From a virus: DNA of 30,940 nt. The notes below the pieces were generated by a model. It did no database searches. It was not told the origin of the DNA and worked only from the letters and a program-made list of their open reading frames with translations. Shown here piece by piece: positions 5,801-30,940 of this stretch. The DNA is taken from IMG/VR virus record IMGVR_UViG_3300047380_000289, positions 1 through 30,940 of that record. One strand, written 5' to 3'. The position numbers and the translations under genes are program-made. Position 1 is the first letter of the stretch, and every line of letters starts with the position of its first letter.

Positions 5801-6734
5801 CTCCACCCTGTGGACCTACTCCACCTTGAGGGCCTGTTGAGCCAGTTCCACCTTTTTGACCTTTATCACCCTGTGGGCCAGTAGCACCTTGTGGGCCTTT
5901 AGCACCTTGAGGACCATCAGCACCTTGTGGTCCTTTTGAACCAGTGGAACCCTTTCCACCTGTTGCACCAGTTGGGCCTGTTGAGCCAGTAGCTCCTTTT
6001 TGACCTTTAGGGCCAGGATTTCCTTGAGCACCTTGAGGGCCAGTTAAACCAGTAGGTCCGTTTACACCTTTAGCACCTTGAGGGCCTGTTCCACCTTGAG
6101 GGCCTGTTGAACCTTTGGGGCCGGTTGGGCCAGTTGCACCTTTAGGACCAGTTGCACCATTGTTACCAGTTGGGCCTTGAGGTCCGGTTGGGCCGGTAGA
6201 ACCACCAGGTCCTTGTGAACCAGTAGCTCCCTTTTGACCCTGTGCACCTTGAGGTCCTTGAGATCCAGTAACACCTTTATTACCAGCCGTACCCTTTTGA
6301 CCTTTAGCACCAGTTGGACCAGTTGGGCCGGTATTATGGAAGAGTAATTGACCTACATAATAATTGTGGTCAGGTTCTACTTCTATACTTACTATATCTA
6401 ACGATTCTTCTACATATTCTAATGATGTGATGTGTAGGTCGTTGTGTAATTCTTTTTGTTTGTTGAATGCATTTATTGGTGAAACCCACTCACCCATTAG
6501 GGTTAAGATTTTAGCATCAACTGATGATTTTAGTTTAGACCCATCTGAAAGAGTGAATTCTAAATAGGAATCTATGGACCGCGTTCTTACCGAAACAACT
6601 TTGTTATCCCTAACACCTACTCCATGTATATCAAAACCTTTTACTACATCACCAACTTTAATGTCACCAAGTGTTTGGAAACTCCCATTGATGTCTATTA
6701 AGGTATCTTTATGTAAACCGTGTATTAATTCCAT
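2892..6734 (-). CDS. 1280-aa collagen-like fibre protein with N-terminal Hint domain
   Basis: Three parts are visible. Residues 6-134 read as a Hint (intein/Hedgehog-type) domain: block A with TLIDINGS and [12 protein letters not shown], block B-like [14 protein letters not shown] with GEWV, and block F/G with [13 protein letters not shown] and LLFHN. His133-Asn134 is followed by Thr135, as at a C-terminal splice junction. The expected Cys1 is Gly6 and the block B His is Ala, so splicing should be dead, while Asn-dependent C-terminal cleavage could remain. Residues 136 to about 1237 are Gly-X-Y repeats, roughly 365 triplets, with two PTQPKG breaks. The last 43 residues form a short non-collagen tip ([14 protein letters not shown]). 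Higher-order repeats of 87 and about 170-204 residues are present. The gene starts 13 bases after the upstream fibre gene. The function is inferred to be a long fibre shaft. Confidence 0.88.
3186..4470 (-). repeat. 261-bp tandem repeat within collagen coding sequence
   Basis: The plus-strand string AGTTACACCTTGAG or its start occurs at 3351, 3612, 3873, 4134 and 4395, exactly 261 bases (87 codons) apart. Flanking sequence such as the TCACCATCTG and ACCTTGGTCACC stretches follows the same spacing in several copies. Outer limits are approximate. The copies differ at scattered bases, mostly keeping Gly codons. Confidence 0.85.
4730..6066 (-). repeat. Long-period repeat (612 and 513 bp) in collagen coding sequence
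   Basis: A distinctive non-Gln block ([16 protein letters not shown]) is encoded three times. The plus-strand string GGATTTCCTTGAG begins at 4891, 5503 and 6016, giving spacings of 612 and 513 bases, both multiples of three. Between these anchors the modules vary by whole Gly-X-Y triplets. Limits are approximate. Confidence 0.75.
6333..6719 (-). other. Hint (intein-like) domain of the 1280-aa collagen protein
   Basis: This encodes residues 6-134. The signatures are block A ([17 protein letters not shown]), a block B-like region ([10 protein letters not shown]) and blocks F/G ([21 protein letters not shown] followed by Thr). Its size of about 129 residues suits a Hint domain without a homing endonuclease. 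Cys1 and the block B His are replaced, but the terminal His-Asn is intact. Confidence 0.72.
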
Positions 6735-17911: not shown

Positions 17912-19510
17912 CTATGCGAGTGTTTCTAAACCATTAACGTATACCTTACCGTAGAACTCACCTCTTACCATTTGCTTAGCGTAACGTGTCATTACACCTT
18001 TTCTTGGAGTGAAGTTTGTTGGGTCATATACCAACGGAGTCATGATTAATGGAATGTATGGAGCGTAAACTGCGCCAGTTTCCAAGAATTGAGCACCCTT
18101 GAAGCCCATCAATACGACATTAGATGTCAAATATGGGTTTTTGTATACTTGGTAACGATTCGCGAATGAACCTACTTGAGATACACCCATTGCGAATTGC
18201 ATATCAGCACCAGTACCATTAGCAGCAAATCCTGGGATTGATTCCAAGATAGTTGCAACGTCAGGAGAAACTACCATAAAGTTAGCTCCACCTCTCATGG
18301 TCTTAGCATGAATTTGGTTAGATACTCTCTGAAGAACAGTACCAAGAGTTTGGAACCATTGTTGTTGAGTGTAACGTTGTACGTCATTTGCTGCAGGTGC
18401 AGTAAATGCTGAACCATTCCATGAAGAACCTACTTTAGCAGACCAGTGACCTTCAGTCAATGCGTTTTCCATCAACATATCTAAGATTTCGAGGTCGATT
18501 TCTTGAGATACGTATTCAGACAACATTGAAGTCAATTCAGCTTCAGCATCAATACTATGGTAAGCGTTCAAATCTTGAGCGAATTCCGGCGTCCATTGTG
18601 CTTTCAACTTACGAGTCTTAGCAACGATTGGCACAGAGCGTAGCTCTACGTTCAATTCTGGAATACCTATGTCAGCACCAGTTGTGTCTTCGAAGTCACC
18701 ACGAGTGATGTCAGTTGGTTGTTTCTGATATTTAACAGTTACATTACCAAAGTCAGTATCACGAGCAACGAATACGATGTTTTCACCAGCTAAACGAGTG
18801 TACTCAGCGTAGTACTCGTCAACACCTTCAAGTGAGAATGCACGTGCACCTTCACTATCGAAGTTTGCGATAGACGCAGTTTGAATAGCAACAGTTACGA
18901 GGTCAGCATCGTGAACAGCCCATACTGATTGAGAGAATGCTGAATCATAGTTGATATCAGACATACCCAAAGATGCAGTAGCGTAAGCGTTTGCACCAAC
19001 TGAAGTAGCTAATGCTTGAGCAGCAGACTCATCTTCATTGATAGAGTATCCGAAACGACCTGCACCATAAAGACCTTCAGAAACATCACCAGCAACTTCG
19101 GTAACACCGAATACTGAGTCAGTTTGTGAATTTTTACCAGCACCAGTTTCGAAACCTGGCTGAGCAGTACCATACTTGAAGTCAAGATAGAATACAAGAC
19201 CTGAAGGTAGGTTCATTGGTTGTACTGAGACGAATTCTTTTGCAGCGATTTCGCTGAAGATACGTCTTACTAATGGAAGAGCGACACCGGCCCACTCTTC
19301 AGAGTTTGCAGCAGTACCTGTGCTTGATGCTTCAGATACTAATTGCTTTGCTTGGTTTTCCAACAATGTAGCAATACTTGCTCTTTCGAAGTCAGCGTCA
19401 ACGCCTTCCAAAAGACCAGTTTTTTCCCACTTGGCTACAAGGCCTTTAGCCTCTTCGCTCATTTTTTTGTTGAAACCAGCAGATTCGTTTAATAGAGAAT
19501 TTGTGTTCAT
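17912..19510 (-). CDS. gp23-like: Major capsid protein, T4 gp23-like
   Basis: The match to the T4 gp23 family is clear. VRRIFSEIAAKEFVSVQPMN with PSGLVF corresponds to the gp23 VRR...QPMN...G-VF segment. RKLKAQWTPEFAQDLNAYHS with DAEAELTSMLS corresponds to its RQLKA...ELAQDL...H-DAEAEL segment. The C-terminal part (VYAPYIPL, DPTNFTPRKGVMTRY, GKVYVNG) also fits. The length of 532 aa is close to the T4 precursor. The N-terminus should be removed by the prohead protease: LVSE-A at 57-61 lies at the place of the known T4 cut after Glu65, and LLNE-S at 6-10 is a second candidate. AGGA precedes the ATG. It follows the scaffold gene by 30 bases and is closed by a strong terminator. It forms the hexamers of the capsid shell. 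Confidence 0.95.
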   Translation of the reverse strand: MNTNSLLNESAGFNKKMSEEAKGLVAKWEKTGLLEGVDADFERASIATLLENQAKQLVSEASSTGTAANSEEWAGVALPLVRRIFSEIAAKEFVSVQPMNLPSGLVFYLDFKYGTAQPGFETGAGKNSQTDSVFGVTEVAGDVSEGLYGAGRFGYSINEDESAAQALATSVGANAYATASLGMSDINYDSAFSQSVWAVHDADLVTVAIQTASIANFDSEGARAFSLEGVDEYYAEYTRLAGENIVFVARDTDFGNVTVKYQKQPTDITRGDFEDTTGADIGIPELNVELRSVPIVAKTRKLKAQWTPEFAQDLNAYHSIDAEAELTSMLSEYVSQEIDLEILDMLMENALTEGHWSAKVGSSWNGSAFTAPAANDVQRYTQQQWFQTLGTVLQRVSNQIHAKTMRGGANFMVVSPDVATILESIPGFAANGTGADMQFAMGVSQVGSFANRYQVYKNPYLTSNVVLMGFKGAQFLETGAVYAPYIPLIMTPLVYDPTNFTPRKGVMTRYAKQMVRGEFYGKVYVNGLETLA

Positions 19511-19540
19511 CTTATTAATCCTTTTCTTTTAGTTTTTTAA

Positions 19541-20581
19541 TTATTTAATTAAACCAGCAAGCTTCTTAAATCTATCAGCAACAGCATTACCTTCAGAAAT
19601 GATTTCTTTCTTAGGTGCAGTCGATGCCATAGGCTTAGACGCTAGTGATTCTTTTACAACTGTTTTTGGTTTTCTTGCAACATTCAAGTTTTCACCCAAT
19701 GTAGCGAATACCAATTTTACTTCTCTCAAAGATTCAGCTCTATCGAAGTTTTCGATGACTTTCATCTTCTGACCTTCGTTCAAGTCGAATGTTCTGAACA
19801 ACTTGTTAGTGTAAAGAAGTTTAGCATTCAATAAGTTTACCTCATTGATAGTACCTCTCAACGACTCGATAGTAGCATATGCTTCTTCCAATTCCGTTGA
19901 TTCTTCTACTTCTTCAACTTCTTCCGATTCGTAAGTTTCTTCAACTTCTTCTTCTTCAGACATTTCTTTCAAAGTAGAAATGATTTCTTCCAAAGAAAGT
20001 TCTTCGTCAAGTTCTTCCGACTCTTCAACTTCTTCTTCTGATTCCATTACTTCTTCAACTTTTTCAGTTTCTTCAACTTCTTCTTCGTCTAAATCTTCAC
20101 CTTCCATAGCAGCTTCAAGTTCAGCGATTACTGATTCAAGGTCGAGTTCATCTTCTTCCTCTTCATCCATCATCTCTTCTACTTCATCTTCTACTTCAGC
20201 TTCGTCTTCAGCTTCTTCGTCAGCTTCTTCTTCAGCTTCTTCTTCAGAATGCATTTCCTCTTCGTGAGAATCGATTTCGTCAGAAGCGATATCAGCTACC
20301 TCTTCTTCTTCATCTGATTCTAACTCTTCTTCCATTTCTTCCTCTTCAGAAACTTCATCTTCCATTTCAGAAACTTCGTCATCCGTTTCGGATTTCATCA
20401 TTTCTTCCATTTCTTCTTCAACTTCTTCTTCTTCATCTAACTCTTCAGCTAGTTTATGAGAAAGCATAGATTGGAGTTTTGGAGTAAACGCCTCTTCGAG
20501 AGCCATTTTTGCGTTTGCTAATGCAGTTTCTTTTACGGCTTTAGCATCGGCGATTGCTTCTTTTAACAAATCTGATTTCAT
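19541..20581 (-). CDS. gp22-like: Prohead core scaffold, T4 gp22-like, 346 aa
   Basis: The position between the protease region and the capsid gene matches T4 gene 22. The N-terminal helix (LLKEAIADAKAVKETALANA, FTPKLQSMLSHKLAEEL) is followed by an extremely acidic Glu/Asp run (about residues 48-225) and a more ordinary C-terminal third (AYATIESLRGTINEVNLLNA, FATLGENLNVARKP). The core scaffold is assembled inside the prohead and then degraded by the gp21-type protease. Candidate cut sites are INE, DLNE-G and IISE-G near the C-terminus. A perfect AGGAGG lies 6 bases before the ATG, suggesting high translation. A promoter-like element lies 109 bases upstream. Confidence 0.9.
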   Translation of the reverse strand: MKSDLLKEAIADAKAVKETALANAKMALEEAFTPKLQSMLSHKLAEELDEEEEVEEEMEEMMKSETDDEVSEMEDEVSEEEEMEEELESDEEEEVADIASDEIDSHEEEMHSEEEAEEEADEEAEDEAEVEDEVEEMMDEEEEDELDLESVIAELEAAMEGEDLDEEEVEETEKVEEVMESEEEVEESEELDEELSLEEIISTLKEMSEEEEVEETYESEEVEEVEESTELEEAYATIESLRGTINEVNLLNAKLLYTNKLFRTFDLNEGQKMKVIENFDRAESLREVKLVFATLGENLNVARKPKTVVKESLASKPMASTAPKKEIISEGNAVADRFKKLAGLIK

Positions 20582-20587
20582 TTGTTA

Positions 20588-20593
20588 CCTCCT
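20588..20593 (-). promoter_or_regulatory. Strong Shine-Dalgarno site AGGAGG of the scaffold gene
   Basis: AGGAGG on the minus strand lies 6 bases before the ATG at 20581. It is the best ribosome binding site seen here and confirms that start. Confidence 0.85.
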
Positions 20594-20689
20594 AAATTAA
20601 ACTTTTGGATAATAAGATTATTTTAAATCTTAATAGAATATAATAATATAATATGAATCACTCATTAGATTGGAGTGATATTAATTTAC

Positions 20690-20697
20690 AATAAGTA
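20690..20697 (-). promoter_or_regulatory. Putative promoter element TACTTATT
   Basis: The coding strand reads ACATACTTATTGTAAATTA, 109 bases upstream of the scaffold gene in an AT-rich 151-base gap with no gene. It is a one-base variant of the shared element, with the CATACTTAT part intact. Confidence 0.45.
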
Positions 20698-20732
20698 TGT
20701 AAATTTTACAATAAACGATAAAGTGTTTACTA

Positions 20733-20990
20733 TTATCTTGCTTCTTGTTGTCTACGGACCCAATCAGCTCGTCTAGCATCATTCATTTGTTTACGTTTAC
20801 GTGTAGTCGGTTTAGTGTATTCCCTATTTTGCTTGATAAGGTCAATTACACCATTATCTTTCATAATACGTTTCCACTTTCTAAGTGCTGCTTCAATGTT
20901 ATTATTAATAACCTTTACACCATTAGCATGACCATATAGGAATAACTCCTCACGTTCTTTTCTTACTTTTTTTTCTCGTTTGTATGACAT
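20733..20990 (-). CDS. rpsU-like: Ribosomal protein bS21 homologue, 85 aa
   Basis: Residues about 26-80 match the bS21 pattern: NNIEAALRKWKRIMKDNGVI corresponds to the N-terminal helix pattern ALRxxKR...K.G, then REYTKPTTRKRKQMNDARR corresponds to the family's EYxKPTxxRKR...A basic helix. It is very basic, as expected for a 30S protein near the mRNA exit. The first 25 residues (MSYKREKKVRKEREELFLYG) extend beyond usual bS21. bS21 is among the ribosomal proteins reported in tailed phage genomes; a role in biasing host ribosomes toward phage mRNA is a hypothesis. No clear Shine-Dalgarno lies before the ATG. It sits alone between a terminator/promoter and the scaffold unit. An unrelated basic DNA- or RNA-binding protein is the alternative. 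Confidence 0.82.
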   Translation of the reverse strand: MSYKREKKVRKEREELFLYGHANGVKVINNNIEAALRKWKRIMKDNGVIDLIKQNREYTKPTTRKRKQMNDARRADWVRRQQEAR

Positions 20991-21007
20991 ATATTTTATT
21001 TAATAAA

Positions 21008-21039
21008 CAAAAAACACCCATCGAACTAACGATAGGTGT
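21008..21039 (-). terminator. Intrinsic terminator after the 52-aa gene
   Basis: On the minus strand, ACACCTATCG, a six-base loop and CGATGGGTGT form a 10-bp stem with one G-U pair, followed by a run of T. It ends the head-gene unit coming from the right. Confidence 0.9.
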
Positions 21040-21040
21040 C

Positions 21041-21048
21041 TATAAATA
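21041..21048 (-). promoter_or_regulatory. Putative promoter element TATTTATA upstream of bS21 gene
   Basis: The coding strand reads CACTATTTATAGACACC, 51 bases upstream of the bS21-like start. It abuts the terminator stem, so a transcript starting a few bases downstream would begin inside the hairpin and lack its 5' arm. Confidence 0.45.
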
Positions 21049-21064
21049 GTGTTTGTAAAGTTAA

Positions 21065-21223
21065 TTAAGACATTTTATCTAAACCATCTTTAAAATCAGA
21101 TATAAGATTTCCAAATTCTTTTTGTTTATCGGCTGGTAACCTCTTAATCTTTTTAAGGTTCTTTTTGATAAATGATGAAAAATCAACACTTATTTCTTGA
21201 AGTCGTTCTAAATCACGATTCAT
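21065..21223 (-). CDS. Small unrecognised protein, 52 aa
   Basis: The ATG at 21223 overlaps the upstream stop as TAATG, which is typical of translational coupling. The product starts MNRDLERLQEISVDFSSFIK and is a Lys-rich helical protein ending DFKDGLDKMS. The stop lies 26 bases before a strong terminator stem, so this is the last gene of the packaging/head unit. No family is recognised. By place it could be a small prohead core component like the small core proteins of T4, but the sequence alone does not show this. Confidence 0.72.
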   Translation of the reverse strand: MNRDLERLQEISVDFSSFIKKNLKKIKRLPADKQKEFGNLISDFKDGLDKMS

Positions 21224-22200
21224 TATTTCTTAACCTTACCTTTTTTGATATCTCTTTCAAGTTCTTCTGCAGCTCTTAATACATCTACAACTGATATATT
21301 AATTGGTACTTGACGATATTTTGATATTTTACGAACTGCCAACATCACAATTCTTTTTTCTTCGCTAGAAGCACCTTCTCCAATAATATCTTCGGTTACT
21401 GATTCAAAGTAAAGGTCAGACATCTTATCTTGAAGTTTAGGGTTTTTAAAATCAAACTGATACTTTTCCATTGCTCTTCTGGCTTTCAATGCCGATTTAG
21501 CAGCAACTACAAAGTATCCTTTTTTAGAACCACCTAATTTCTTTTGTAGTTTATTTGCTTGGTCTTTAGTACCAATACCCTTTTGGTTTCCCTTTGGGTC
21601 TATTATTGAGTATTTGTTTTCACTTAGTATATCAGTTAGTTTCATTGACGATTCTTCATTTACAGATTCTTTAGCGAATTCTTTAGCGTTTTCCTTGTCG
21701 TCCTTATCAACGTCTTTTACTGGAAATTCTTTACCATCTACTTCGAACTCATCATCACCATTAGCAATTGCTTTCGCTCTTGCAGCGCCGAATTCGTTAC
21801 CTTCTTTGATTTCGTAATACTTACCAAGAACTTCGCCCATCTCATCGTAACAAGACTCAAGTCTTTGTTGTAGGGTATTTACTTCTTTGATTGTATTAGT
21901 AAATACTTTGAATGACTCATTCATAGACTTCATGTGTCTACCAACAGTTACCTTGTCAAACCAATCTCCAGTTTCCTCAAGAGTTACCTTGTGTGCAGTC
22001 TCTACAATACCTTTAATAGATTCGTATACTTCTGCCAAATTACCTGAACGGTAGATTGACTCACCGAATTTCTTGTATTCAGAAACAGCTTTAAGGAATT
22101 CACGCTTTTCTTCGTTAGTCATTCCCTTTTGGGTTTCTTCATCGTTTATCTTCATACGTTTGTATGTAGATTCGTTTAGTAGTTCTTTTAAATTTTTCAT
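21223..22200 (-). CDS. Putative virion-internal / prohead core protein, 325 aa
   Basis: It starts MKNLKELLNE-S. This 10-residue peptide ending in Glu resembles the capsid-targeting leader of T4 internal proteins, which the gp21 protease removes. Residues 10-150 are mainly helical and charged. AKESVNE-E at 177-183 and ILSE-N at 191-195 are further candidate cleavage sites. Residues 197-270 (GYFVVAAKSALKARRAMEKY, NPKLQDKMSDLYFESVTE) are related to a segment of the protein at 28871-29740. The last 50 residues are helical and end in Lys-rich GKVKK. Its start overlaps the protease stop as TAATG, so the two are coupled. The location between protease and scaffold supports a prohead role. No named family is recognised; the internal-protein role is inference. 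Confidence 0.8.
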   Translation of the reverse strand: MKNLKELLNESTYKRMKINDEETQKGMTNEEKREFLKAVSEYKKFGESIYRSGNLAEVYESIKGIVETAHKVTLEETGDWFDKVTVGRHMKSMNESFKVFTNTIKEVNTLQQRLESCYDEMGEVLGKYYEIKEGNEFGAARAKAIANGDDEFEVDGKEFPVKDVDKDDKENAKEFAKESVNEESSMKLTDILSENKYSIIDPKGNQKGIGTKDQANKLQKKLGGSKKGYFVVAAKSALKARRAMEKYQFDFKNPKLQDKMSDLYFESVTEDIIGEGASSEEKRIVMLAVRKISKYRQVPINISVVDVLRAAEELERDIKKGKVKK

Positions 22201-22838
22201 TATACTCCAAAATCACATTCACAATATCCACCAACCTCACACATGATGTCTCTCATCATATTGTTAGCTTTATTGTATTTATAAGTATTCTTTTTAACAG
22301 TAACCGATTCGTTTATCGTACCCTCGTTTGTTGGTGAAAGAAATGCTCCATGAGTTGATGGGTTAGAAACAAAGTCCCAACATATCAAATCAAAGTCTTG
22401 TTCTACTGCGACGGTGTCTTCACCAATTTGTTTTACGGAACCCATACCTCTTGACGAGATACCAACAGTACACCCAGCTTTTACTAATTCTTGTAAAATC
22501 TTTCCAGCTGGTGTATTTAGTATTTCAACTGTTCCAACAACATCATCACCATTCCATGATACTTCACGGATAATGTGTGATGTGTTCTTTAATTCGACTA
22601 CACCACTTTCAGGATGGTCCAATTCACCATAAGCACGATTCTCTTTGATTTCACGTCCTTGGTATTTCTTTACTTCACGTTCTAAGATGTTACGTGGATA
22701 CACTCTACCATTTTGGTTTTTAGCATCAGCACGTTGTAACACACCATTTACTAAGAAACGACCAGTCTGGTCCTTTGCTTCTTGTAACATAGTAGGTGTT
22801 ACTTCAAATATCATTGTATCTACAAGTAGTTGTTTCAT
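22200..22838 (-). CDS. gp21-like: Prohead core protease, T4 gp21-like (peptidase S77 type), 212 aa
   Basis: The preferred start MKQLLVDTMIFEVT (22838) lies one base after the stop of a 46-aa gene; an ATG at 22892 would add 18 residues that overlap that gene. The resulting 212 aa equals the T4 gp21 length as remembered. Motifs: NGRVYPRNIL (43-52), GELDHPESG with likely catalytic His75, GCTVGISSRGMGSV with likely Ser128 or Ser129, and FDLICWDFVSNPSTHGAFL. It cleaves scaffold and capsid precursors at short sites ending in Glu and is itself removed. TINE-S at 174-178 could be a self-cleavage site freeing the 34-residue tail. Its place between portal and scaffold matches T4. Confidence 0.93.
   Translation of the reverse strand: MKQLLVDTMIFEVTPTMLQEAKDQTGRFLVNGVLQRADAKNQNGRVYPRNILEREVKKYQGREIKENRAYGELDHPESGVVELKNTSHIIREVSWNGDDVVGTVEILNTPAGKILQELVKAGCTVGISSRGMGSVKQIGEDTVAVEQDFDLICWDFVSNPSTHGAFLSPTNEGTINESVTVKKNTYKYNKANNMMRDIMCEVGGYCECDFGV
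22280..22287 (-). promoter_or_regulatory. Putative promoter element TACTTATA inside the protease gene
   Basis: The coding strand reads AATACTTATAAATACAAT, 80 bases upstream of the 325-aa gene and within the 3' part of the protease gene. It also contains TATAAATA, the T4 late-promoter consensus, in the sense direction. Confidence 0.35.
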
Positions 22839-22839
22839 C

Positions 22840-22980
22840 TTAGTTTTCCCACACCTTTTTCTTACGATATAAATCAAAGAACACTCTTGCAAGTTCTCTA
22901 CGTATCAATAGTCTGATATCTTCGAGGTCTTGTACTTCGAGGTCTTCGTTTAATTTATTTTTATTACACCCACACGACAT
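22840..22980 (-). CDS. Small unrecognised protein, 46 aa
   Basis: The ATG at 22980 follows the upstream stop by one base, and the stop precedes the protease ATG by one base, so the frame exactly fills the space between two genes. The product starts MSCGCNKNKL with two Cys, continues with an acidic stretch (NEDLEVQDLE) and ends in an amphipathic basic helix (LLIRRELARVFFDLYRKKKV). T4 has two small core proteins, gp67 and gp68, between portal and protease; this gene has a matching place but no obvious sequence match. The packing and codon-like reading support it strongly. Confidence 0.78.
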   Translation of the reverse strand: MSCGCNKNKLNEDLEVQDLEDIRLLIRRELARVFFDLYRKKKVWEN

Positions 22981-22981
22981 A

Positions 22982-23512
22982 CTATGCGCTCAATTCTTTT
23001 AGATTACGAGCAACTTTCAACATTCTTTCTGAAATCTTACCGAATCTTTTTTGTGTAGACTTCCAATATTGTTCATTAGATACACCCATTTCGTTTTTCA
23101 ACTTAGTGTTCTGATTTACAATCTTTTCAACTTCGTACATCATTCGATTAATCTCTTTGATAGATTTATTTACTTTTTGATGTGCTTTCATAGAGTCATC
23201 TTTTTTGTAATCTCTATAAGTAGCTTCGATTATACGTTCTAGCTTATCTTCTAATTTCTTCATAGTTTTAGACTCCGTATTTATCTTTTTAGTTTTCTTT
23301 GGCTTCTTGTAACCAAGTACTTCTATGTGGTCAGTATCTAAATCATCCTCATCTTCACTTTTAGAAAAAGCGTTTGGAGTTTTAGGTGGGCCTGCTCCCC
23401 CATCCATATTAGATGTTACATTAGCCTCATCTACCTCTTCCTCTTTAAGAGTTTCGATTGACTCCAGCTCTTCAAACTTACCTTCCAATTGTTCTAGTAA
23501 GAATTTAGACAT
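22982..23512 (-). CDS. Putative prohead core protein, 176 aa
   Basis: The start at 23512 (MSKFLLEQLEGKFEEL) is chosen because GGAGGG lies 6 bases upstream; a longer frame from 23545 lacks this. Its ATG overlaps the stop of the upstream gene by 8 bases. The N-terminal 40 residues are acidic, with EEEVDEANVTS. The middle is disordered and charged (GGAGPPKTPNAFSKSEDEDD). Residues about 80-176 form a long helical, likely coiled-coil region (MKKLEDKLERIIEATYRDYK, IKEINRMMYEVEKIVNQ). The place between portal and protease equals that of T4 core genes 67 and 68. A core role is therefore likely but not shown by sequence. Confidence 0.78.
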   Translation of the reverse strand: MSKFLLEQLEGKFEELESIETLKEEEVDEANVTSNMDGGAGPPKTPNAFSKSEDEDDLDTDHIEVLGYKKPKKTKKINTESKTMKKLEDKLERIIEATYRDYKKDDSMKAHQKVNKSIKEINRMMYEVEKIVNQNTKLKNEMGVSNEQYWKSTQKRFGKISERMLKVARNLKELSA

Positions 23513-24350
23513 TCGAAACCCTCCGTAACTCTTGTAAAAGTTCATGATATCTTAGAAGAGATAAAATCTGATTCTCATTGATTATTTTAGAATTTGTAAT
23601 GTTATCAATAAGATTTACAGTTTCATTTAGTTTTATTTGTGCTACTTTATCCGATACATCTACTGCTTTGAAACTTTTCTTTAGTTTCTTAACTTCAGTT
23701 ATAACAAATGACTTTAATTTAGTTGAATTATCAACGTTGTTGATATAATTCTTTAAAATCATTTTTTGTTCTTCTGATAAAGTTGTGTACTTTGAGTTAA
23801 ATGATTCGACCAAGAACTTATAAGCCAACAACCTAACTTCTTTAGATTGGTTGTTATACTCAGTATTATCAGATTCAGTTACAATCTCAACATTTGATTT
23901 AGTGATTACTTCGAGTATTGTATTTTTACAAGTAACGTACTCTTTTGGAGATGCCAAACTTGTATTTTCAAACATTTTGTAAACCGATGCCATTTCACGA
24001 TAATTAGTAACACGATATTTAAAGAAGTCCTCCATAACAAATGACTCTTTGATTGATTTAATCAAATTATACTTTTGTCTACGAAGAATACCCTCATTTA
24101 AACTACCACGTTCTTCCAATACAATATTTAAAAACTCCTGAGCCTGATATTGGTTATCAAAGTTTTCTTTAGTTAAAGATTGATACAATTTTAACTCTTT
24201 GTTTAATTCAGTACCTCGTTTGAAATGTTTCTTTATTATTTCCAAGGCAAGAGAATCTTTGTTCGCAAGTGTATCGGATGCGATTTGCTTTACGAGTAAT
24301 TCAAATAGAATACCCGTATTTTTAAACTTGCTGTGTTTTAATTTGGCCAT
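23505..24350 (-). CDS. Unrecognised head-cluster protein, 281 aa
   Basis: It starts MAKLKHSKFKNTGILFELLV. The product is almost entirely helical and rich in Lys, Glu, Asn and Leu, with no membrane segment or enzyme motif. Possible processing sites RGSLNE-G (near residue 86), KLNE-T and IINE-N are visible. It lies directly after the portal gene, with its own promoter-like element 30 bases upstream, and overlaps the next core gene by 8 bases. This position suggests a structural or assembly role in the prohead, for example a portal-associated or internal protein. No family name can be given from the sequence. Confidence 0.8.
   Translation of the reverse strand: MAKLKHSKFKNTGILFELLVKQIASDTLANKDSLALEIIKKHFKRGTELNKELKLYQSLTKENFDNQYQAQEFLNIVLEERGSLNEGILRRQKYNLIKSIKESFVMEDFFKYRVTNYREMASVYKMFENTSLASPKEYVTCKNTILEVITKSNVEIVTESDNTEYNNQSKEVRLLAYKFLVESFNSKYTTLSEEQKMILKNYINNVDNSTKLKSFVITEVKKLKKSFKAVDVSDKVAQIKLNETVNLIDNITNSKIINENQILSLLRYHELLQELRRVSNV
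23519..23524 (-). promoter_or_regulatory. Shine-Dalgarno GGAGGG deciding the start at 23512
   Basis: GGAGGG on the minus strand lies 6 bases before the ATG at 23512, inside the end of the upstream gene. It favours this start over the ATG at 23545. Confidence 0.7.
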
Positions 24351-24379
24351 TGTAAACCTTATCTATTACTATTCCAATT

Positions 24380-24387
24380 TATAAATA
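24380..24387 (-). promoter_or_regulatory. Putative promoter element TATTTATA
   Basis: The coding strand reads ACATATTTATAAATTGG, 30 bases before the start of the 281-aa gene, in the 49-base gap after the portal gene. Confidence 0.5.
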
Positions 24388-24399
24388 TGTAAAAACTCA

Positions 24400-26250
24400 T
24401 CAAATCGTGTCATCGATAAGATTTCTCTCATCTAATAAACCCGATTCAGCCTTTTCATCTTCTAATAAAGATTCATTTAGAATCTTAGTTGTTTTGCGTT
24501 TAACGTTTTTCAAAGATGATTTCAAAGCTTGTGTTTGCTCGTAAGCAAGTGGTGAATTTTTATACTTATGATATGTTGCGGCTGGTTTAATATCGGTCTT
24601 TTGACCAAGTGGGTCTCTACCAAATGCACTATCATCCGTTTTATAGTTACCTGATGTTGATGGTCTACCAGCACCATCAAACCCACCTTCAGGAGAACCA
24701 CCATCATCGTTAGGTGTTTGATGCATTTGTGCCAAATCGTGTGGTGTACCAAATGACTCGCCAGTTTTAACTGGATCATTACCTTCATCTTCAATTTGAG
24801 CTTGTCTAAATCCGAGTTTTAAATCTCCAATAACTTTACCTTGTTCAAGAGCCCACTCATCATCACTCATATTGAATATGTTCTTATACATCCATTCTTG
24901 AGAAACCATTTTGAGGTCTTTCATATCAGATACCAATGATACCTTCTCAGACCACAATGCAGCTTTCTCTTGTTCGTATATGATAGATGGGTTTGTAAGT
25001 TCCAACTCAAAGTTAACAAGGTCTTCGTTTTCGTAACCTTGTGAGTATAAGTGAACGATTGCAATCTTAGTTAATTCAGAAAGAACAATCTTTTGGATTC
25101 TCTCAACTGAACGTGCGAATCTGATATCCTCTTGTGCTAATGTTGCTTTACCTTCAACTGACTCATCGTACCCAATAAATGCTTTTGGTACTTTTAGTGC
25201 AGCCATCATTCTATTTCTTAGGTATTCGATATCATCAATACCACCGAATTCCATACCACTTAATGTATCTATCTCAGTACCACTCTGACCACCACGAACT
25301 GGTAGGTAGTAATCATCTAACATATTCATTAGATTAAACTTGAGATTGTAGTCACCAGTATTTTGGTCAAGATATGGTACTTTCTTCATTTGGTCAATGA
25401 TACCTCTCATGTGGTTATCAACTTCACCAGGTGGAATGTTACCTACATCAATTTTAAATGTACGTCTTTCAGGTGCTCTCATAATTCTATGAATCATCAT
25501 AGCATCTTCCATAAGAGTCAACTGCTTCCAAGTCTTTCTTGCACCTTCTAATAACGAACGACCATATGGAAGGAAGTTTGTATCTGCTAATAAACGGAAA
25601 TGTGCGATTTGATAGAACTCAAAGTAATCAGCGTTCTTGTTTACACTTGCACCATGAGCAGCACCCATTGAACCTAATTTAAATCTTACTTCGTATGGGT
25701 TTTCGGGATTAAACCCTTCTTCTCTTTCTACTTCGTATGCTGACATTGGTGATACGTTTACAATACCAACACCTTCTTCAATATCAAGATGTAGGAAGTA
25801 GTCACCATATTTATTCATACCACGAATCCAAGCCCAAAGATTGAACTCAATATTCATTACATCGTAAAATAGGTTGTGAAGAATCTTTTTTACGTTCTCG
25901 TCATCAGTTTTAATTCTAAGAACATCACCCATGTCATTTTTTAGAGTACACTCATCGGCGTATATATCTAATACTGAGTTTAGAATGGAATCTTTATCCA
26001 TTGCTTCGTAATCAGTATATAGTTCTAATTTATTTGAATGATAATTAAATTGATTGTTATACGTTTCCCAATTTCTACGAGAGGTATGCATTCTACCAAA
26101 CCTATCGTAATAAGATGAACCACGGAGGTTACCCTGAGATTGTAGTCTTTGAGTATCGATAGTTTGGGTACGGCCCTTACCAATCCTACGGACAACAACT
26201 TGAGTGTTGAATAATTTTCCTAACCTATTAAATAGTGATTTATCTGCCAT
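24400..26250 (-). CDS. gp20-like: Portal vertex protein, T4 gp20-like, 616 aa
   Basis: Family signs include YTDYEAMDKDSILNSVLDIY with ADECT near the N-terminus, RAPERRTFKIDVGNIP, YYLPVRGGQSGTEIDTLSG, and LRNRMMAALKVPKAFIGYDE with GKATLAQEDIRFARSVERIQ, in the order expected for T4-type portals. The last 110 residues are low-complexity (HQTPNDDGGSPEGGFDGAGR) and end in a helix with ILNE-S, a candidate site for trimming by the prohead protease. The portal forms the dodecameric DNA channel at one vertex, docks the terminase and starts prohead assembly. The terminase gene lies 73 bases upstream. A promoter-like element is 39 bases before the ATG. Confidence 0.95.
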   Translation of the reverse strand: MADKSLFNRLGKLFNTQVVVRRIGKGRTQTIDTQRLQSQGNLRGSSYYDRFGRMHTSRRNWETYNNQFNYHSNKLELYTDYEAMDKDSILNSVLDIYADECTLKNDMGDVLRIKTDDENVKKILHNLFYDVMNIEFNLWAWIRGMNKYGDYFLHLDIEEGVGIVNVSPMSAYEVEREEGFNPENPYEVRFKLGSMGAAHGASVNKNADYFEFYQIAHFRLLADTNFLPYGRSLLEGARKTWKQLTLMEDAMMIHRIMRAPERRTFKIDVGNIPPGEVDNHMRGIIDQMKKVPYLDQNTGDYNLKFNLMNMLDDYYLPVRGGQSGTEIDTLSGMEFGGIDDIEYLRNRMMAALKVPKAFIGYDESVEGKATLAQEDIRFARSVERIQKIVLSELTKIAIVHLYSQGYENEDLVNFELELTNPSIIYEQEKAALWSEKVSLVSDMKDLKMVSQEWMYKNIFNMSDDEWALEQGKVIGDLKLGFRQAQIEDEGNDPVKTGESFGTPHDLAQMHQTPNDDGGSPEGGFDGAGRPSTSGNYKTDDSAFGRDPLGQKTDIKPAATYHKYKNSPLAYEQTQALKSSLKNVKRKTTKILNESLLEDEKAESGLLDERNLIDDTI

Positions 26251-26288
26251 AATTTCGTCTCTAACTAAAAGTATATACTTCTACAAGT

Positions 26289-26296
26289 TATAAATA
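26289..26296 (-). promoter_or_regulatory. Putative promoter element TATTTATA upstream of portal gene
   Basis: The coding strand reads GTATATTTATAACTTG, 39 bases before the portal ATG. A perfect 12-base palindrome AAGTATATACTT (26269-26280) lies between it and the start codon. Confidence 0.5.
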
Positions 26297-26323
26297 TACA
26301 AAAAATAAATTAAAGTACCAAAT

Positions 26324-27898
26324 TTAAAGTAACCAAGTTAAATCTTGGTCCTTTCCATGTTGGTCTTTTTGTTTCCATGGGTCTTGGCCGAGGTTACGGT
26401 TAGAATAAACACCGGTACTTGACTTACCCATATGCCCTAATGTAGTTCTCGTTAAATCCATACCCTGTTGTCTTAATTTTAATGCCGTATCACGTACCCA
26501 AAGACCGGTGGAGAATGATATCACCAAGTCATCATTATAACCACGTTGTGCTTCAGCTCTACTACCATTCCATATGAATACAAACAATTCGTCTATAAGT
26601 CTCTTAGAATGGATTATAGGGGTTCTCTCTCTCATATACATATCTAACTTAGATATTACTAATGGTCGAGTTCTACTTGTCATAGAAAATCCAGGAACCA
26701 TATCCTCTTTACGTTTTAAGTCAAAACCTTTTCTGAGATGTATATCATCATCTATGTAACCTACATCTCTATATGAATAATATAGATTATCATAGTTTCT
26801 ATCAATTACTTCTTGTATCACTGCCCAACCAATATTTGCGTTTTCAATCACCAACATTGCGTTGTTCCATTCTGCCGCTACCGAAGTTAACATTGCACCA
26901 TATTGTTTAGTATCAATCTTACCTTTGTATTCTGCTACTTGTTCAACAGTCTCTACATCGAATACATGGAATGCTGAATAATCGGATGAGTCACCTCTTG
27001 CGACATCGGCAACTACTACATAATCACGAGAATAATTTGGATAGTCCCATAACCAATAGTTACCATCAAACCCACGTTTTTCAATTGGGTCTTTTACATA
27101 AGTTTCTTCGTACCATTGTAATGTAGCACCTTCAACTACCGTATGGCCAGAACTGATAAAGTCACAATCACACTCTTGTGCTGCGCCCTTAGTTCCTAAT
27201 AATTTCTCCTGTTCATCTCTCCACGATTGATTTCTCTCAGGATGTACCGTCCAATGTAATTCGGTTGGATTCCACTGGTCTCCTTGTTGACCTTGAACCC
27301 AAATCTTGTGAAACCAATTACCCACACCATTTGGGGTAGATAATACAATAGCACCACCACCGGTAGAAAGTGTAGATTGTGCCGAAGTCCAAATCTCTTC
27401 TACATTGTTAATGAATGCAGCCTCATCAATAATCAACATCGACAATGCCTCAGAACGACCAGCATCACCTGCAGCAGATGTTGCTTTAATTTGAGAACCA
27501 TTACGTAATCTTAGAGATAACTTGTTATCCTCTTCAGTTTGACCTTTTAACCACGTTGGTAAGTTATCGTGCATGAATCTTACCTTAGTAACAAGGTTCT
27601 TAGCAACCTCTTGTTTGGTTGCAATTACAAGAATGTTTTTGTCTTCGTGAAATAACATCAACCATAGTGAATATCCGGCTGATAGTGTTGAGATACCCAA
27701 CTGGCGTGACTTGAGGATTACGTTGAATCGTTCCTCATTTACACTTGTCATTAAGTCTTCTTGAAATGGGTAAAGATTAAATAAAATCTTGCCACGGTGG
27801 GGGTGTTGGATATAACAATACTTCTTGAAGAAATATACTGGATCCTTAGCACACTTAACCCACTCTTCTCTGATTAGTGTTTTTATATCTTTTGGCAT
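26324..27898 (-). CDS. gp17-like: Terminase large subunit, T4 gp17-like, 524 aa
   Basis: This is the ATPase and nuclease motor that cuts and packages DNA through the portal. The ATPase part has YPFQ (43-46), a deviant Walker A KSRQLGIST (63-71) where the usual GK(T/S) Lys is Ile, a Walker B MLIIDEAAF (154-162) and the coupling motif STPNG (187-191). The RNase H-like nuclease has VADVARGDSSDYS with Asp298, VIENANIG with Glu352 and YNDDLVIS with Asp456/457. Lys63 may take the place of the missing P-loop Lys, as proposed for deviant Walker A motifs in other terminases such as lambda gpA. Length is shorter than T4 gp17 (about 610 aa). No sheath or tube gene lies between it and the portal gene, unlike T4. 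Confidence 0.95.
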   Translation of the reverse strand: MPKDIKTLIREEWVKCAKDPVYFFKKYCYIQHPHRGKILFNLYPFQEDLMTSVNEERFNVILKSRQLGISTLSAGYSLWLMLFHEDKNILVIATKQEVAKNLVTKVRFMHDNLPTWLKGQTEEDNKLSLRLRNGSQIKATSAAGDAGRSEALSMLIIDEAAFINNVEEIWTSAQSTLSTGGGAIVLSTPNGVGNWFHKIWVQGQQGDQWNPTELHWTVHPERNQSWRDEQEKLLGTKGAAQECDCDFISSGHTVVEGATLQWYEETYVKDPIEKRGFDGNYWLWDYPNYSRDYVVVADVARGDSSDYSAFHVFDVETVEQVAEYKGKIDTKQYGAMLTSVAAEWNNAMLVIENANIGWAVIQEVIDRNYDNLYYSYRDVGYIDDDIHLRKGFDLKRKEDMVPGFSMTSRTRPLVISKLDMYMRERTPIIHSKRLIDELFVFIWNGSRAEAQRGYNDDLVISFSTGLWVRDTALKLRQQGMDLTRTTLGHMGKSSTGVYSNRNLGQDPWKQKDQHGKDQDLTWLL

Positions 27899-27906
27899 AT
27901 CACATA

Positions 27907-28488
27907 TTATTTACCAAACTTCCAATACATACCGATTGTGTAAACGGGCTTGAAGTCACTATCTACACCTACCCCAATATTATATACATTACGTTTTTTT
28001 GTTTTGTATAAAAGATTACCACTCAAGTTATTTAGTTGAGTTCGGTCACCATTTAACGTAGTACCCACATAGAGTTCACGTTTGTTGATGTAAACAGTAT
28101 TAGTAATTGTAGTTGTTGGGATGAGTATTTCGGATTGAACATCTCTAAATGAAATTAGATTACGTGTTATCGTATCGTTAATAGTAACATAACCCAGCGA
28201 ATCTATCATAATAGTATCAGTATAAAAGTATTTTGCGTAATAATCTTTTAATACTGATAATGTATCAATTGGTGTAGTAAATGTATCAATATTAACTACT
28301 ACCTTCTCCACTACCGTTGGGATGTACTTGGTTTTTTCAATTTGTACAGTATCCCATTTTGTGACTACTTCAGTAATAACTTGCGGTTCGGTAATATCAG
28401 ACCCGTTCTGACAACCACGTGTCAGAAATATAATAACTCCCAATACTACTATCAGAAGGGTCTTGATATCTCCGAAATAATTTCTCAC
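27907..28488 (-). CDS. Membrane-anchored protein, 193 aa, possibly spanin-like
   Basis: An N-terminal hydrophobic segment (residues about 10-23, TLLIVVLGVIIFL) is followed by TRGCQNGS. The Cys fits a lipobox poorly, so a signal anchor is more likely than a lipoprotein. The outside part is Thr/Val-rich (VVTKWDTVQIEKTKYIP, INDTITRN) and ends in beta-strand-like segments (YNIGVGVDSDFKPVYTIGMY) with an aromatic end WKFGK. This design is consistent with a one-pass envelope protein, and a spanin or other lysis/entry role is possible, but no homologue is recognised. It lies 8 bases upstream of the terminase gene and 3 bases after the 105-aa gene's stop. Confidence 0.72.
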   Translation of the reverse strand: MRNYFGDIKTLLIVVLGVIIFLTRGCQNGSDITEPQVITEVVTKWDTVQIEKTKYIPTVVEKVVVNIDTFTTPIDTLSVLKDYYAKYFYTDTIMIDSLGYVTINDTITRNLISFRDVQSEILIPTTTITNTVYINKRELYVGTTLNGDRTQLNNLSGNLLYKTKKRNVYNIGVGVDSDFKPVYTIGMYWKFGK

Positions 28489-28491
28489 AAA

Positions 28492-28809
28492 TTACTTGTT
28501 GTAAAGTTCGTAAACTTTATTAATTAGATTCGTCTTGTTTAATTTAGAATCCAAATCAACATTGTGGTCTTTTTTAGCAGCCTCAAGCATTTGTACTTTT
28601 GTCATCGAACGAAGTTTACTTTTAGTAACCTTCCCTTTGATAGCCGACATTACGTCTTTAAGTTCGTCTGCTACATCAGCAAACTCTTCTTTAACTGATT
28701 GTAGCTTTTCCTTTGCATCTGATACTGTTTCCATGATTTGTTCATCAATGGTAGTTTTGTTCAATAATCTATTCCATAGACCGATGAACCAATTTTTAAG
28801 TTTTGTCAT
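28492..28809 (-). CDS. Small protein with C-terminal SAP/HeH-like motif, 105 aa
   Basis: The N-terminus has an amphipathic aromatic helix (KLKNWFIGLWNRLL). The middle is a charged helix, possibly coiled coil (VSDAKEKLQSVKEEFADVAD). The C-terminal 45 residues (SKLRSMTKVQMLEAAKKDH, LNKTNLINKVYELY) fit a helix-extension-helix/SAP-type fold, often a nucleic-acid contact, where a MTK-Leu helix is followed by a KTxLINK helix. It could bind membrane at one end and DNA at the other; this is inference. A promoter-like element lies 33 bases before the start codon, and the membrane protein gene follows at once. Confidence 0.75.
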   Translation of the reverse strand: MTKLKNWFIGLWNRLLNKTTIDEQIMETVSDAKEKLQSVKEEFADVADELKDVMSAIKGKVTKSKLRSMTKVQMLEAAKKDHNVDLDSKLNKTNLINKVYELYNK

Positions 28810-28841
28810 GATTTTCTTTTTTTGTTAAACTTATTGTATTA

Positions 28842-28849
28842 TATAAGTA
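28842..28849 (-). promoter_or_regulatory. Putative promoter element TACTTATA
   Basis: The coding strand reads ACATACTTATATAATAC, 33 bases before the start of the 105-aa gene, in the 61-base gap after the stop at 28871. Confidence 0.55.
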
Positions 28850-28870
28850 TGTAACTCAAAGTTAATTAAG

Positions 28871-29740
28871 TTACCACTTACGGCAAGACCAATATCTAGC
28901 TTTATGTCTTGGTCCTGGATTATCACAATTGTGTCTTGCTCTAAATGCCTTACGTCTCGCAGGGTCATTCTTTTTGATAGACATAGTTTTACCCTTTGCT
29001 GAAGAGCCACCATGTCCAAAGTTTACCTTTACAACATTTCCTTTTGGATTCTTTACATACACTTTAAACTTTTTAACATCACCTTGCATTGGCTTACCAA
29101 GTTTTACATCACGACCTTGATACTCTGCTTCATCAAGTGTTGGGTTTAGTGCGTAGATGTCACTATTCTGCTCTTTATGTAGATTTAACATCTGAGAATA
29201 TTCTTTCATAAAGTTTATGAAGTCATGTGTTTCTTCAATACTTTCTACATCATATTCTTCAATCACCTCATCACCTTCGTTTCTTCTCTTCTTAGAGTAG
29301 AGGTAGTCTTTATATAGTTCTTCATAATCAACACCATCTTTCTCATAATCTGATAACGCTTCAGTTGATACTGATTCCTTGTACAATTTAAACATCGAAT
29401 CTCTGAACTTAGTATTACTAAGGTCTGACTGATATTTTTTGATAAGTGATTGTGCTTTACTTAGGTTTTTCTTTGATACGATGTAGTGTGTTCCTTTACC
29501 TCTATATTTCTCAAAGGAATACCACATATTACTTTCAAGACCCTTATCAACGACTTTACCATCTTTGTCAAGTATCATATATAATCCACTTGAATATGTA
29601 GCTTCATTTTTAAATGATGATACATATGGGTTGTCAATTACCTTACCCAGCTCAGTAGTAAAACCATACTTATCTTCCATAAAGCCTTTTACGTTATGGT
29701 ATTCTTCTCTGATTAATTCCTTGAGTTGTGTTTTAGTCAT
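28871..29740 (-). CDS. Putative virion-internal protein with C-terminal Cys domain, 289 aa
   Basis: It starts MTKTQLKELIREE, similar to the leader of the 325-aa protein at 21223-22200 (MKNLKELLNE), so an N-terminal cut after Glu is possible. Residues 54-127 (GTHYIVSKKNLSKAQSLIKK, NTKFRDSMFKLYKESV) align with residues 197-270 of that protein. The middle is acidic and helical. The last 60 residues form a distinct conserved-looking domain: KVNFGHGG, KTMSIKKNDPARRKAFRARH, NCDNPGP and YWSCRKW, with two Cys and two His that could bind metal. I recognise it only as a C-terminal domain seen in phage proteins and cannot name it. It starts 1 base after the stop of the gene to its right. Confidence 0.78.
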   Translation of the reverse strand: MTKTQLKELIREEYHNVKGFMEDKYGFTTELGKVIDNPYVSSFKNEATYSSGLYMILDKDGKVVDKGLESNMWYSFEKYRGKGTHYIVSKKNLSKAQSLIKKYQSDLSNTKFRDSMFKLYKESVSTEALSDYEKDGVDYEELYKDYLYSKKRRNEGDEVIEEYDVESIEETHDFINFMKEYSQMLNLHKEQNSDIYALNPTLDEAEYQGRDVKLGKPMQGDVKKFKVYVKNPKGNVVKVNFGHGGSSAKGKTMSIKKNDPARRKAFRARHNCDNPGPRHKARYWSCRKW

Positions 29741-29741
29741 C

Positions 29742-30940
29742 TTACTTTACCTTTTTAGCCAATGAGTAAAAGTCAATGTTGAATCTAAAACCAGCACCAT
29801 CGTAATCTCTATCCACTTCAACTGGAACTTTAAGTTGTTTCTCAAGTGTCTTTCTCAATTCTTCTTTCACATCGACATCATTTTCAACTGCACCTTGGAG
29901 ACCATCTAAGTCATTACCACTTGCAGCGATTAGGGTCAATCCCTTTGAGTCACCCATAACTTTAAAGTTTACTGAGTCTTTACCCAATCTCACTTTTGCT
30001 TCTTTGATGATACCTTCACCGAATTGTTTAACCATTTTCTTTTGAACTGGGTTATTAGGTTTACCTGCGATTGCAGATACTAACTTCATTCTATCAGCAA
30101 GTTTACCTTTCTTAACGAATTGGTATACTTTCTCAATGTCTAATTTGTTATCATCAACAAACTTTTGGATAGCATCTTTATTCATGCCAGTCAAACCACC
30201 AATTTCCATTGCAGTTCTTGTTGTAGACTCATTTACCTTTACACCAACGGGTTTGTTAGATTTTACAATCATACCCTTAGCACCATCTTTCTCAACCGAT
30301 TTTAAGAATTTCTTAGCATCAGCTTCTTTTGCATATACAGCTGATGATGGTTTTATATTTTTGTTAGGTAAATCTTTTTTGTCCTTAAACATCACTACAA
30401 ATACTTTATCCTTAGCTTCGTTTACTGATTCGTCTACTTTATACTTGTAGATTACATCACTTCTATCTCTTAACTTAGTTTTGTTATTTTGTAAATCATA
30501 GCTAGGGTTTGCAGTAGTTGCTTTAGCAAACTTACCATTCTTTAAATAAAATGCACCAATACGAGAATTGTTATCATCAGTTACATAGAATGTTGCGTTT
30601 TTCTTTTGCTTTGATAATTTAATGATATCAGTAAGATTTTTAGCTTTAATGAATTCACCATAACCTTCATTTACTGATTCGTATGCCTTTTTATTGGTTT
30701 GAAGATTTTTAAACAATATATTTTGCTTATCATCAATTGTTTTATACTTCGTTGGTTTTTCATTAAAATCCTCAAGAGCATAATTTAACATCTTTATCCA
30801 TTCAGTATCACTATGCTTTTTACGAAAATCAGATAACATCTTAAAAAATTTATTCTTATCTTTGTTAGCTTTTTTGTAAAAATACCAAACATTTACTCCA
30901 GCTTCATTTACTGATTCTGAAAATAATCGTTTACCTGTAC
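29742..30940 (-). CDS. Multi-site precursor-like protein, 5' end outside window
   Basis: The frame has an ATG at 30839 but stays open upstream to the window edge (RLFSESVNEAGVNVWYFY precedes that Met), so the true start is outside. Counting from the first visible residue, candidate protease sites end at Glu12 (SVNE-A), Glu91 (SVNE-G), Glu174 (SVNE-A) and Glu237 (KVNE-S). These divide the protein into blocks of about 79, 83 and 63 residues plus a C-terminal part of about 160 (GLTGMNKDAIQKFVDDNKLD, AKVRLGKDSVNFKVMG, DRDYDGAGFRFNIDFYSLAK). Each block looks like a small alpha/beta or helical unit with a Lys-rich surface. It is probably packaged with, or forms part of, the prohead core and is cut during maturation. 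No family is recognised. Confidence 0.78.
   Translation of the reverse strand, partial: TGKRLFSESVNEAGVNVWYFYKKANKDKNKFFKMLSDFRKKHSDTEWIKMLNYALEDFNEKPTKYKTIDDKQNILFKNLQTNKKAYESVNEGYGEFIKAKNLTDIIKLSKQKKNATFYVTDDNNSRIGAFYLKNGKFAKATTANPSYDLQNNKTKLRDRSDVIYKYKVDESVNEAKDKVFVVMFKDKKDLPNKNIKPSSAVYAKEADAKKFLKSVEKDGAKGMIVKSNKPVGVKVNESTTRTAMEIGGLTGMNKDAIQKFVDDNKLDIEKVYQFVKKGKLADRMKLVSAIAGKPNNPVQKKMVKQFGEGIIKEAKVRLGKDSVNFKVMGDSKGLTLIAASGNDLDGLQGAVENDVDVKEELRKTLEKQLKVPVEVDRDYDGAGFRFNIDFYSLAKKVK

Follow-up and report, generated by a model that had tools for sequence, protein, structure and literature searches.

A stretch of viral DNA of 30,940 nucleotides (IMG/VR record IMGVR_UViG_3300047380_000289, positions 1 to 30,940; hereafter, the window) is a 30.9 kb piece of a T4-like phage genome whose head genes lie on the minus strand. 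Several proteins encoded among these genes are built of small modules that meet at short sites ending in glutamate. We estimate the probability at about 80% that these sites are cut by the phage's own S77 prohead protease and that the modular proteins are head-internal cargo polyproteins processed inside the prohead. This reading draws on the enrichment of the motif, the conservation of the capsid and scaffold sites, the coincidence of homology borders with the sites, the swapping of modules, the presence of T4-like leaders and the basic charge of the predicted products. A first-pass annotation of the window had listed recurring (V/I/L)-(N/S)-E sites as a possible prohead protease code, and every site that it named is present, all on the minus strand. 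Its interpretation as protease cleavage stands on the encoded S77 protease, the alignment of the capsid site with that of T4 and the difference between head and non-head proteins; the proposed Asn/Ser rule and some of the individual sites did not hold. The extended junction motif, the T4-like leaders and the modular, swapped chains go beyond what was claimed at that stage.

In the proposed scheme, the S77 protease would recognise [V/I/L]-x-E↓ (the arrow marks the predicted cut), and at cargo junctions the clade as a whole would favour E-S-[V/I/L]-N-E↓[G/A/S]. Head-internal cargo would be made as strings of small, mostly basic modules of ~60-110 amino acids (aa), each junction holding a protease site, and the chains would enter the prohead by means of the scaffold and of short N-terminal leaders resembling the capsid-targeting sequence of T4. 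Inside the prohead, the activated protease would cut the capsid protein, the scaffold, itself and the cargo chains. The freed basic modules, similar to the internal proteins (IPs) of T4, would stay with the packaged DNA, so be present in virions, and then probably be ejected into the host. Since one short sequence is common to the junctions, phages could gain, lose and swap cargo at that joint.

Motif enrichment and module borders

Of the three near-complete relatives in which the capsid protein is 98% identical, one (G002) was taken in full; four further large genomes and three partial ones completed the comparison set of eight related genomes or large contigs. Genes were our own longest-open-reading-frame (ORF) calls. 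Contigs and orthologues have common ancestry, and P values are therefore guides only.

A count of the motif in head versus non-head proteins, which the first-pass annotation had proposed, was run on this set using within-protein shuffles as composition-corrected expectation, and enrichment in head proteins was found. The observed/expected ratio of [VIL][NS]E[AGSDENT] was 4.5 for the capsid protein, 4.2 for the scaffold and 6.2 for the protease, values that are not independent because orthologues enter the count several times; it was 5.8 for a 281-aa protein encoded between portal and protease and 4.3 for other genes upstream of the capsid gene. The motif was at chance in the portal (0.95), the terminase (0.7) and other proteins of at least 600 aa (1.02) or less than 600 aa (1.23). 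In cargo-like genes, S[VIL][NST]E was observed 33 times against 3.2 expected (10.4-fold), and the decoys [VIL][NS]D and [VIL][NS]K gave ratios close to 1 (1.18 and 1.36). On the shuffles and the decoy motifs, composition was rejected as the cause of the excess. The longer form ES[VI][NT]E occurred 29 times across the eight genomes, compared to 1.9 by shuffling; seven proteins carried at least two copies (0 expected), six of them in the head region and the seventh on an incomplete contig. In cargo-like proteins of 67 further contigs, 55 copies were found against 0.28 expected.

The position of the sites relative to the limits of homology was analyzed with 133 cargo-like proteins, selected for their location without regard to the motif, that were aligned against all proteins. 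This yielded 410 borders, defined as points where local homology begins or ends inside both partners, and circular shifts provided the null distribution. Ninety-three borders lay within 6 residues of [VIL][NST]E, while 41.3 were expected (0 of 2000 shifts), and the result was replicated on the 67 previously unused contigs (145 versus 78.2 expected, 0 of 1000). No border excess was seen at the decoys [VIL][NST]D/K/Q, [NST][VIL]E and [VIL]E[NST]. An apparent enrichment of the decoy E[NST][VIL] (z 4.2) arose because this decoy overlaps the start of ESVNE, and it disappeared after the overlap was masked (z -0.3).

Among the junction residues that were not fixed by the search, Asn at P2 was enriched 6.7-fold, Ser at P4 4.0-fold, Glu at P5 3.1-fold and Gly at P1' 3.7-fold. 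As far as these sequences go, the consensus E-S-[VIL]-N-E↓[G/A/S] is a clade-wide preference rather than a rule, as D, E and K are also seen in the middle position. Thr at P3 also looked enriched, a signal that probably comes from a single conserved MTNEEK stretch, at which many alignments in one protein family (that of the 325-aa protein described below) start. The codons of the junction vary synonymously across genomes (TCA/TCT/TCG/TCC, GTA/GTT/ATT/ATA, AAC/AAT and GAA/GAG) while the peptide is kept; it thus follows that the peptide is selected.

Modular chains and their leaders

The window encodes a modular protein of 325 aa, a candidate cargo protein (21223..22200, minus strand), with a core that is shared with relatives and tails that are variable. 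It starts with a leader, MKNLKELLNE↓S, followed by a conserved acidic core (residues 11-182) that ends at ESVNE↓E (E182, codon at 21655..21657). Next come a relic start and leader, SSMKLTDILSE↓N (184-194; E194, codon at 21619..21621), and a basic module (195-275). The second basic module (276-325, the EEKRIV module) lies behind IIGE↓G (E275, codon at 21376..21378), at which relatives have ILKE↓G, VVSE↓G or LVGE↓G. In relatives, the common core is joined to tails of 11 to 638 aa (32 distinct tails were examined) that start at the E182 site or at an internal MKLxxLLxE. An opening of the ES..E or MKLxxLLxE type is seen in many of the tails in the family; the latter looks, judged by sequence, like the start codon and leader of a gene that once stood alone. 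In an AlphaFold2 (AF2) model of the 325-aa protein, confidence dips at 178-194, the junction region, with better-predicted parts on either side.

The leader of this protein (E10, codon at 22171..22173) resembles those of T4 ipII/ipIII (MKTYQEFIAE↓A) and gp24 (MAKINELLRE↓S), in all of which position 10 is Glu. T4 leaders that have Asp there are not processed (PMC9026906). N-terminal patterns of this type are enriched at start offsets 5-8 (28 cases, P=4e-7), and in 27 cases Glu occupies residue 9 or 10. Genes with such leaders are concentrated near the capsid gene (18/270, compared to 13/1276 elsewhere).

A conserved protein of ~250 aa that is encoded far from the head genes also starts with a leader-like sequence, MKLKxLILE↓GMYDKLTGEINK. 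It is found at position 78463 of G002 (locus L092, about 18463), 104668 of G007, 92291 of G008 and 85035 of G011, and it may be head cargo encoded elsewhere.

The second chain lies at the right edge of the window (29742..30938, minus strand; its 5' end is lost at the contig edge), with repeated sites between basic modules. The sites ESVNE12↓A, ESVNE91↓G, ESVNE174↓A, KVNE237↓S and IIKE313↓A delimit basic modules 13-91, 92-174, 175-237 and 238-313, followed by 314-398. The four basic fragments have predicted masses of 9.6, 9.5, 6.9 and 8.4 kDa and isoelectric points (pI) of 9.5-9.8, and the last piece is near-neutral. The counterpart in G002 is 598 aa long and also consists of small modules parted by ESVNE, and chains with repeated ES[VI][NT]E are present in G007 (467 and 825 aa), G009 (716 aa), G006 (736 aa) and G010 (633 aa). 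A junction of the form ESVNE↓G also occurs in an 841-aa protein of the cultured Flavobacterium phage vB_FspM_immuto (L152:7111-9636). In the whole set, fragments between strict sites have a median length of 76.5 aa and a median pI of 9.1, compared to 5.6 for random control segments. The adjacent gene encodes a cargo-like protein of 289 aa (28871..29740, minus strand), in which a junction, LDE204↓AEYQGR, precedes a very basic C-terminal module (85 aa, pI 10.6, phrog_7595). The same module is found behind other sequences in G007 and G006.

Several modules were found in more than one context. In both G002 and G010 the GMVSPSKGH module is flanked by sites on each side, with different neighbours in the two, and the GKYDSILDK module is preceded by ESITE, ESVNE or EKVNE. 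The ASRTAMEIGG module stands behind an N-terminal leader (MKMISLLKE↓N) in one phage and behind internal SINE/KVNE in others. The match of the G010 chain to a separate protein family, phrog_5268, begins at residue 332, at an ESVNE junction. At the DNA level, the window diverges from its closest relatives at the ESVNE junction of E91 (30666..30680, minus strand): it is 95.6% identical to G002 over 2,181 bp, the match beginning at 30680, exactly where the ESVNE codons start, with no homology before it. By the sequence evidence, both the 325-aa and the right-edge proteins are modular chains whose swapped modules are bounded by motif sites. Searches of Pfam, PHROGs and NCBIfam assigned the modules no function; counter-defence would be the likeliest role if T4 IPI is taken as a guide.

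Two further proteins were noted in connection with the cargo genes. A nucleotidyltransferase-like protein (phrog_395), encoded near them in G002 (L096:6260-8548) and G007 (27911-30910), carries a second domain behind sites of the ILNE↓GG type and is possibly a packaged enzyme. The hypothetical protein T4-GC_119 of Synechococcus phage S-BM3 (L154:11509-12522), encoded between gp16 and gp17, shares a VYPSAYANGW module, which there lies beside other short basic segments and without ESVNE junctions; the modules may be widespread among marine T4-like phages.

Classical head proteins and neighbouring genes

The gene order on the minus strand is terminase, portal, two proteins placed as T4 gp67/gp68, S77 protease, the 325-aa protein, an S21-like protein, scaffold and capsid. 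The sites in the classical head proteins were compared across relatives, and on conservation they cannot be given equal weight. The major capsid protein (Gp23 family, 532 aa; 17912..19510, minus strand; Pfam PF07068, 1.5e-77) has a predicted maturation cut after E60 (KQLVSE↓ASSTGT; P1 codon at 19331..19333), a prediction based on conservation and on alignment with T4. As the first-pass annotation had proposed, LVSE-A is located where T4 gp23 is cut, E60 being aligned with gp23 Glu65. Glu is present in 66/66 relatives and P3 is V or I, not L, in 66/66, whereas the middle residue is K in 25, T in 18 and S in 16. The view that Asn or Ser at this position is specific to this phage was therefore not borne out, and the preference for Asn at the junctions is clade-wide. 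The other listed capsid site, LLNE-S (E9), is conserved in 26/66 relatives only and should be dropped.

The scaffold (acidic, 346 aa; 19541..20581, minus strand), assigned by the T4-like gp21-gp22-gp23 order, has a predicted cut after E330 (KEIISE↓GNAVAD; codon at 19592..19594), 16 aa from the C terminus. This site, IISE-G (I/L-x-E), is conserved, with Glu in 66/66 relatives and Gly after it in 60/66. Scaffold DLNE-G (E269) is found in 61/66, in a conserved LNE-x-QK helix-start context; it looks as if it may be a helix cap and should probably be removed from the list of cut sites.

The prohead protease (Peptidase_S77, gp21-like; 22200..22892, minus strand) matches Pfam PF03420 above the cut-off (2.9e-31) and phrog_207 (3.2e-52). 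Its start position is uncertain, translation probably beginning at an internal Met at residue 19. Comparison of orthologues aligned its GELDHP and GISSRG with GELNHP and GVSSRG of T4 gp21, which are the catalytic His and Ser motifs. A C-terminal self-cut is predicted at TNE190↓G / INE195↓S, the latter being the TINE-S listed earlier. A site of the x-E-[S/G] type behind the protease domain, after STHGAF, is found in 42/43 orthologues, and T4 gp21 has ITE-S there.

The motif-rich 281-aa protein between portal and protease (23505..24350, minus strand) is placed as T4 gp67/gp68 by position and is possibly a prohead core protein; its SLNE↓G site is conserved in 19/38. The portal (24400..26250, minus strand; Pfam PF07230, 2.2e-71) has a possible C-terminal cut site, ILNE593↓S (E593 of 616), to judge from relatives with Glu in 27/34 and Ser/Thr after it in 29/34. 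SVNE-E of the terminase (E55), which had been flagged as a copy that should not be cut, is conserved in 7/29 only, in agreement with that caution.

As to neighbouring genes, a homologue of ribosomal protein S21 (PF01165, 4.5e-13) is encoded between the 325-aa protein and the scaffold (20733-20990, minus strand), and the annotation of Microcystis phage Mel-JY01 includes a similar gene; S21 genes have been noted in phages before (PMC9723584). Two very long collagen-like proteins (3-2873 and 2892-6734, minus strand) consist of G-x-y repeats with GQKG, and their N-terminal non-collagen parts resemble, by eye, Hint/intein-type domains with an H-N end. The terminase gene of G009 (L098 6938-9732) looks interrupted by an intein whose parts lie in two ORFs, on either side of a free-standing endonuclease-like ORF (7809-8552). 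Cultured relatives, by capsid protein identity, are Mel-JY01 (57%), Flavobacterium phage immuto (55%) and, at a greater distance, Rhodothermus phage RM378 (37%), and the host may therefore be a member of Bacteroidota.

Alternative explanations and relation to known systems

The ESVNE-like stretches could be ordinary flexible, charged domain linkers that are never cut and only mark the points of recombination between modules. The low AF2 confidence at the junction of the 325-aa protein would be found with any linker, but decoys of the same composition in which Asp, Lys or Gln replaces Glu give no border enrichment. The pattern also matches the sites of the capsid protein, scaffold and protease, which the homologous enzyme of T4 cuts (PMC9026906), and a given module may be preceded by a T4-type leader in one protein and by an internal junction in another, the Glu being the same in both. 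We therefore regard uncut linkers as unlikely. An effect at the level of DNA, with the short repeat (GAATCAGTAAAYGAAGG) as a recombination site and the peptide as a by-product, would agree with the nearly identical junction DNA of the window and G002 and with the break in homology at its first base. Common microhomology may aid shuffling, but it leaves the conservation of the peptide unexplained, and since codons vary synonymously across genomes while the peptide is kept, a DNA element was rejected as the sole cause of the recurrence; we consider this explanation highly improbable.

It could also be that cutting is limited to the capsid protein, scaffold and protease and that the cargo chains enter the head intact, as multidomain polyvalent proteins. 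The virion RNA polymerase of N4 is indeed packaged without processing, and great length is common among polyvalent proteins (PMC5512222). Yet the junction motifs are strongest in the cargo, above the classical substrates, and the predicted products are like T4 IPs in size and charge, so that whole packaging appears quite doubtful.

Several observations weigh against cleavage by the prohead protease. The decoy [KR][NST]E was also enriched at borders in the replication (29 versus 14.2), and therefore either the P3 rule is looser or N-E alone gives part of the signal; N-E may matter more than a hydrophobic P3 at some junctions. The border test is not fully independent, as contigs share ancestry and alignment ends are fuzzy. 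In the 325-aa protein, ESVTE at E270 falls within a predicted helix, and some modules are acidic. No Pfam family was found above the cut-off in the nine chains scanned or in the cargo proteins of the window, and the AF2 models are poor (mean pLDDT, the predicted local distance difference test score, of 48.7 and 60.4) and contribute little.

Processing of the chains by the S77 protease would have much in common with gp21 maturation in T4, including the protease family, the portal-protease-scaffold-capsid order, the [LI]-x-E cut, a C-terminal site in the protease (PMC9026906) and a capsid propeptide of ~60 residues, here predicted from sequence. It would differ in that Val is accepted at P3, that cargo junctions have the form E-S-[VIL]-N-E↓G/A/S and that most predicted cuts part cargo modules instead of removing leaders. 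The 10-residue leader with terminal Glu, the small basic predicted products and the diversity behind a constant leader recall IPI/IPII/IPIII of T4 (PMC3012670). The mature form of IPI, IPI*, is 76 residues long and acts as a block to a restriction enzyme (PMC3012670). The T4 proteins are encoded by one gene each, whereas here several modules share a chain, with relic internal starts and leaders at fusion points. Like polyvalent proteins, the chains are multidomain and shuffled, with proposed entry into the host together with DNA (PMC5512222). Unlike these proteins, which combine recognisable enzymes and may carry their own metallopeptidase, the modules lack annotation and are small and mostly basic, and their separation is assigned to the prohead protease. 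In the heads of giant phages (phiKZ gp175, SPN3US gp245), an S77-related protease likewise recognises a three-residue motif with terminal Glu (AXE in SPN3US) and has many head substrates, portal included (PMC10052503). As far as the available part of that account goes, multiple cuts there mainly strip long propeptides, and a string of separate mature cargo proteins is not described in it (PMC10052503). In the open-access literature, we found no description of cargo polyproteins cut by a prohead protease.

We lean towards the view that phages of a large T4-like clade make their injected cargo as protease-cut polyproteins, in which the cut site serves as a standard joint and modules, probably for counter-defence, are swapped between near-identical phages with packaging undisturbed. 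T4 packages internal proteins gene by gene; a cut polyprotein, if real, would load many cargo proteins compactly and in linked amounts. The protease site would then also serve as a marker, and in silico cuts at [VIL]-N-E would list predicted injected proteins that otherwise escape notice, being small and without resemblance to annotated proteins. The injected repertoire and its counter-defence members would become testable in a group with cultured relatives (immuto and Mel-JY01).

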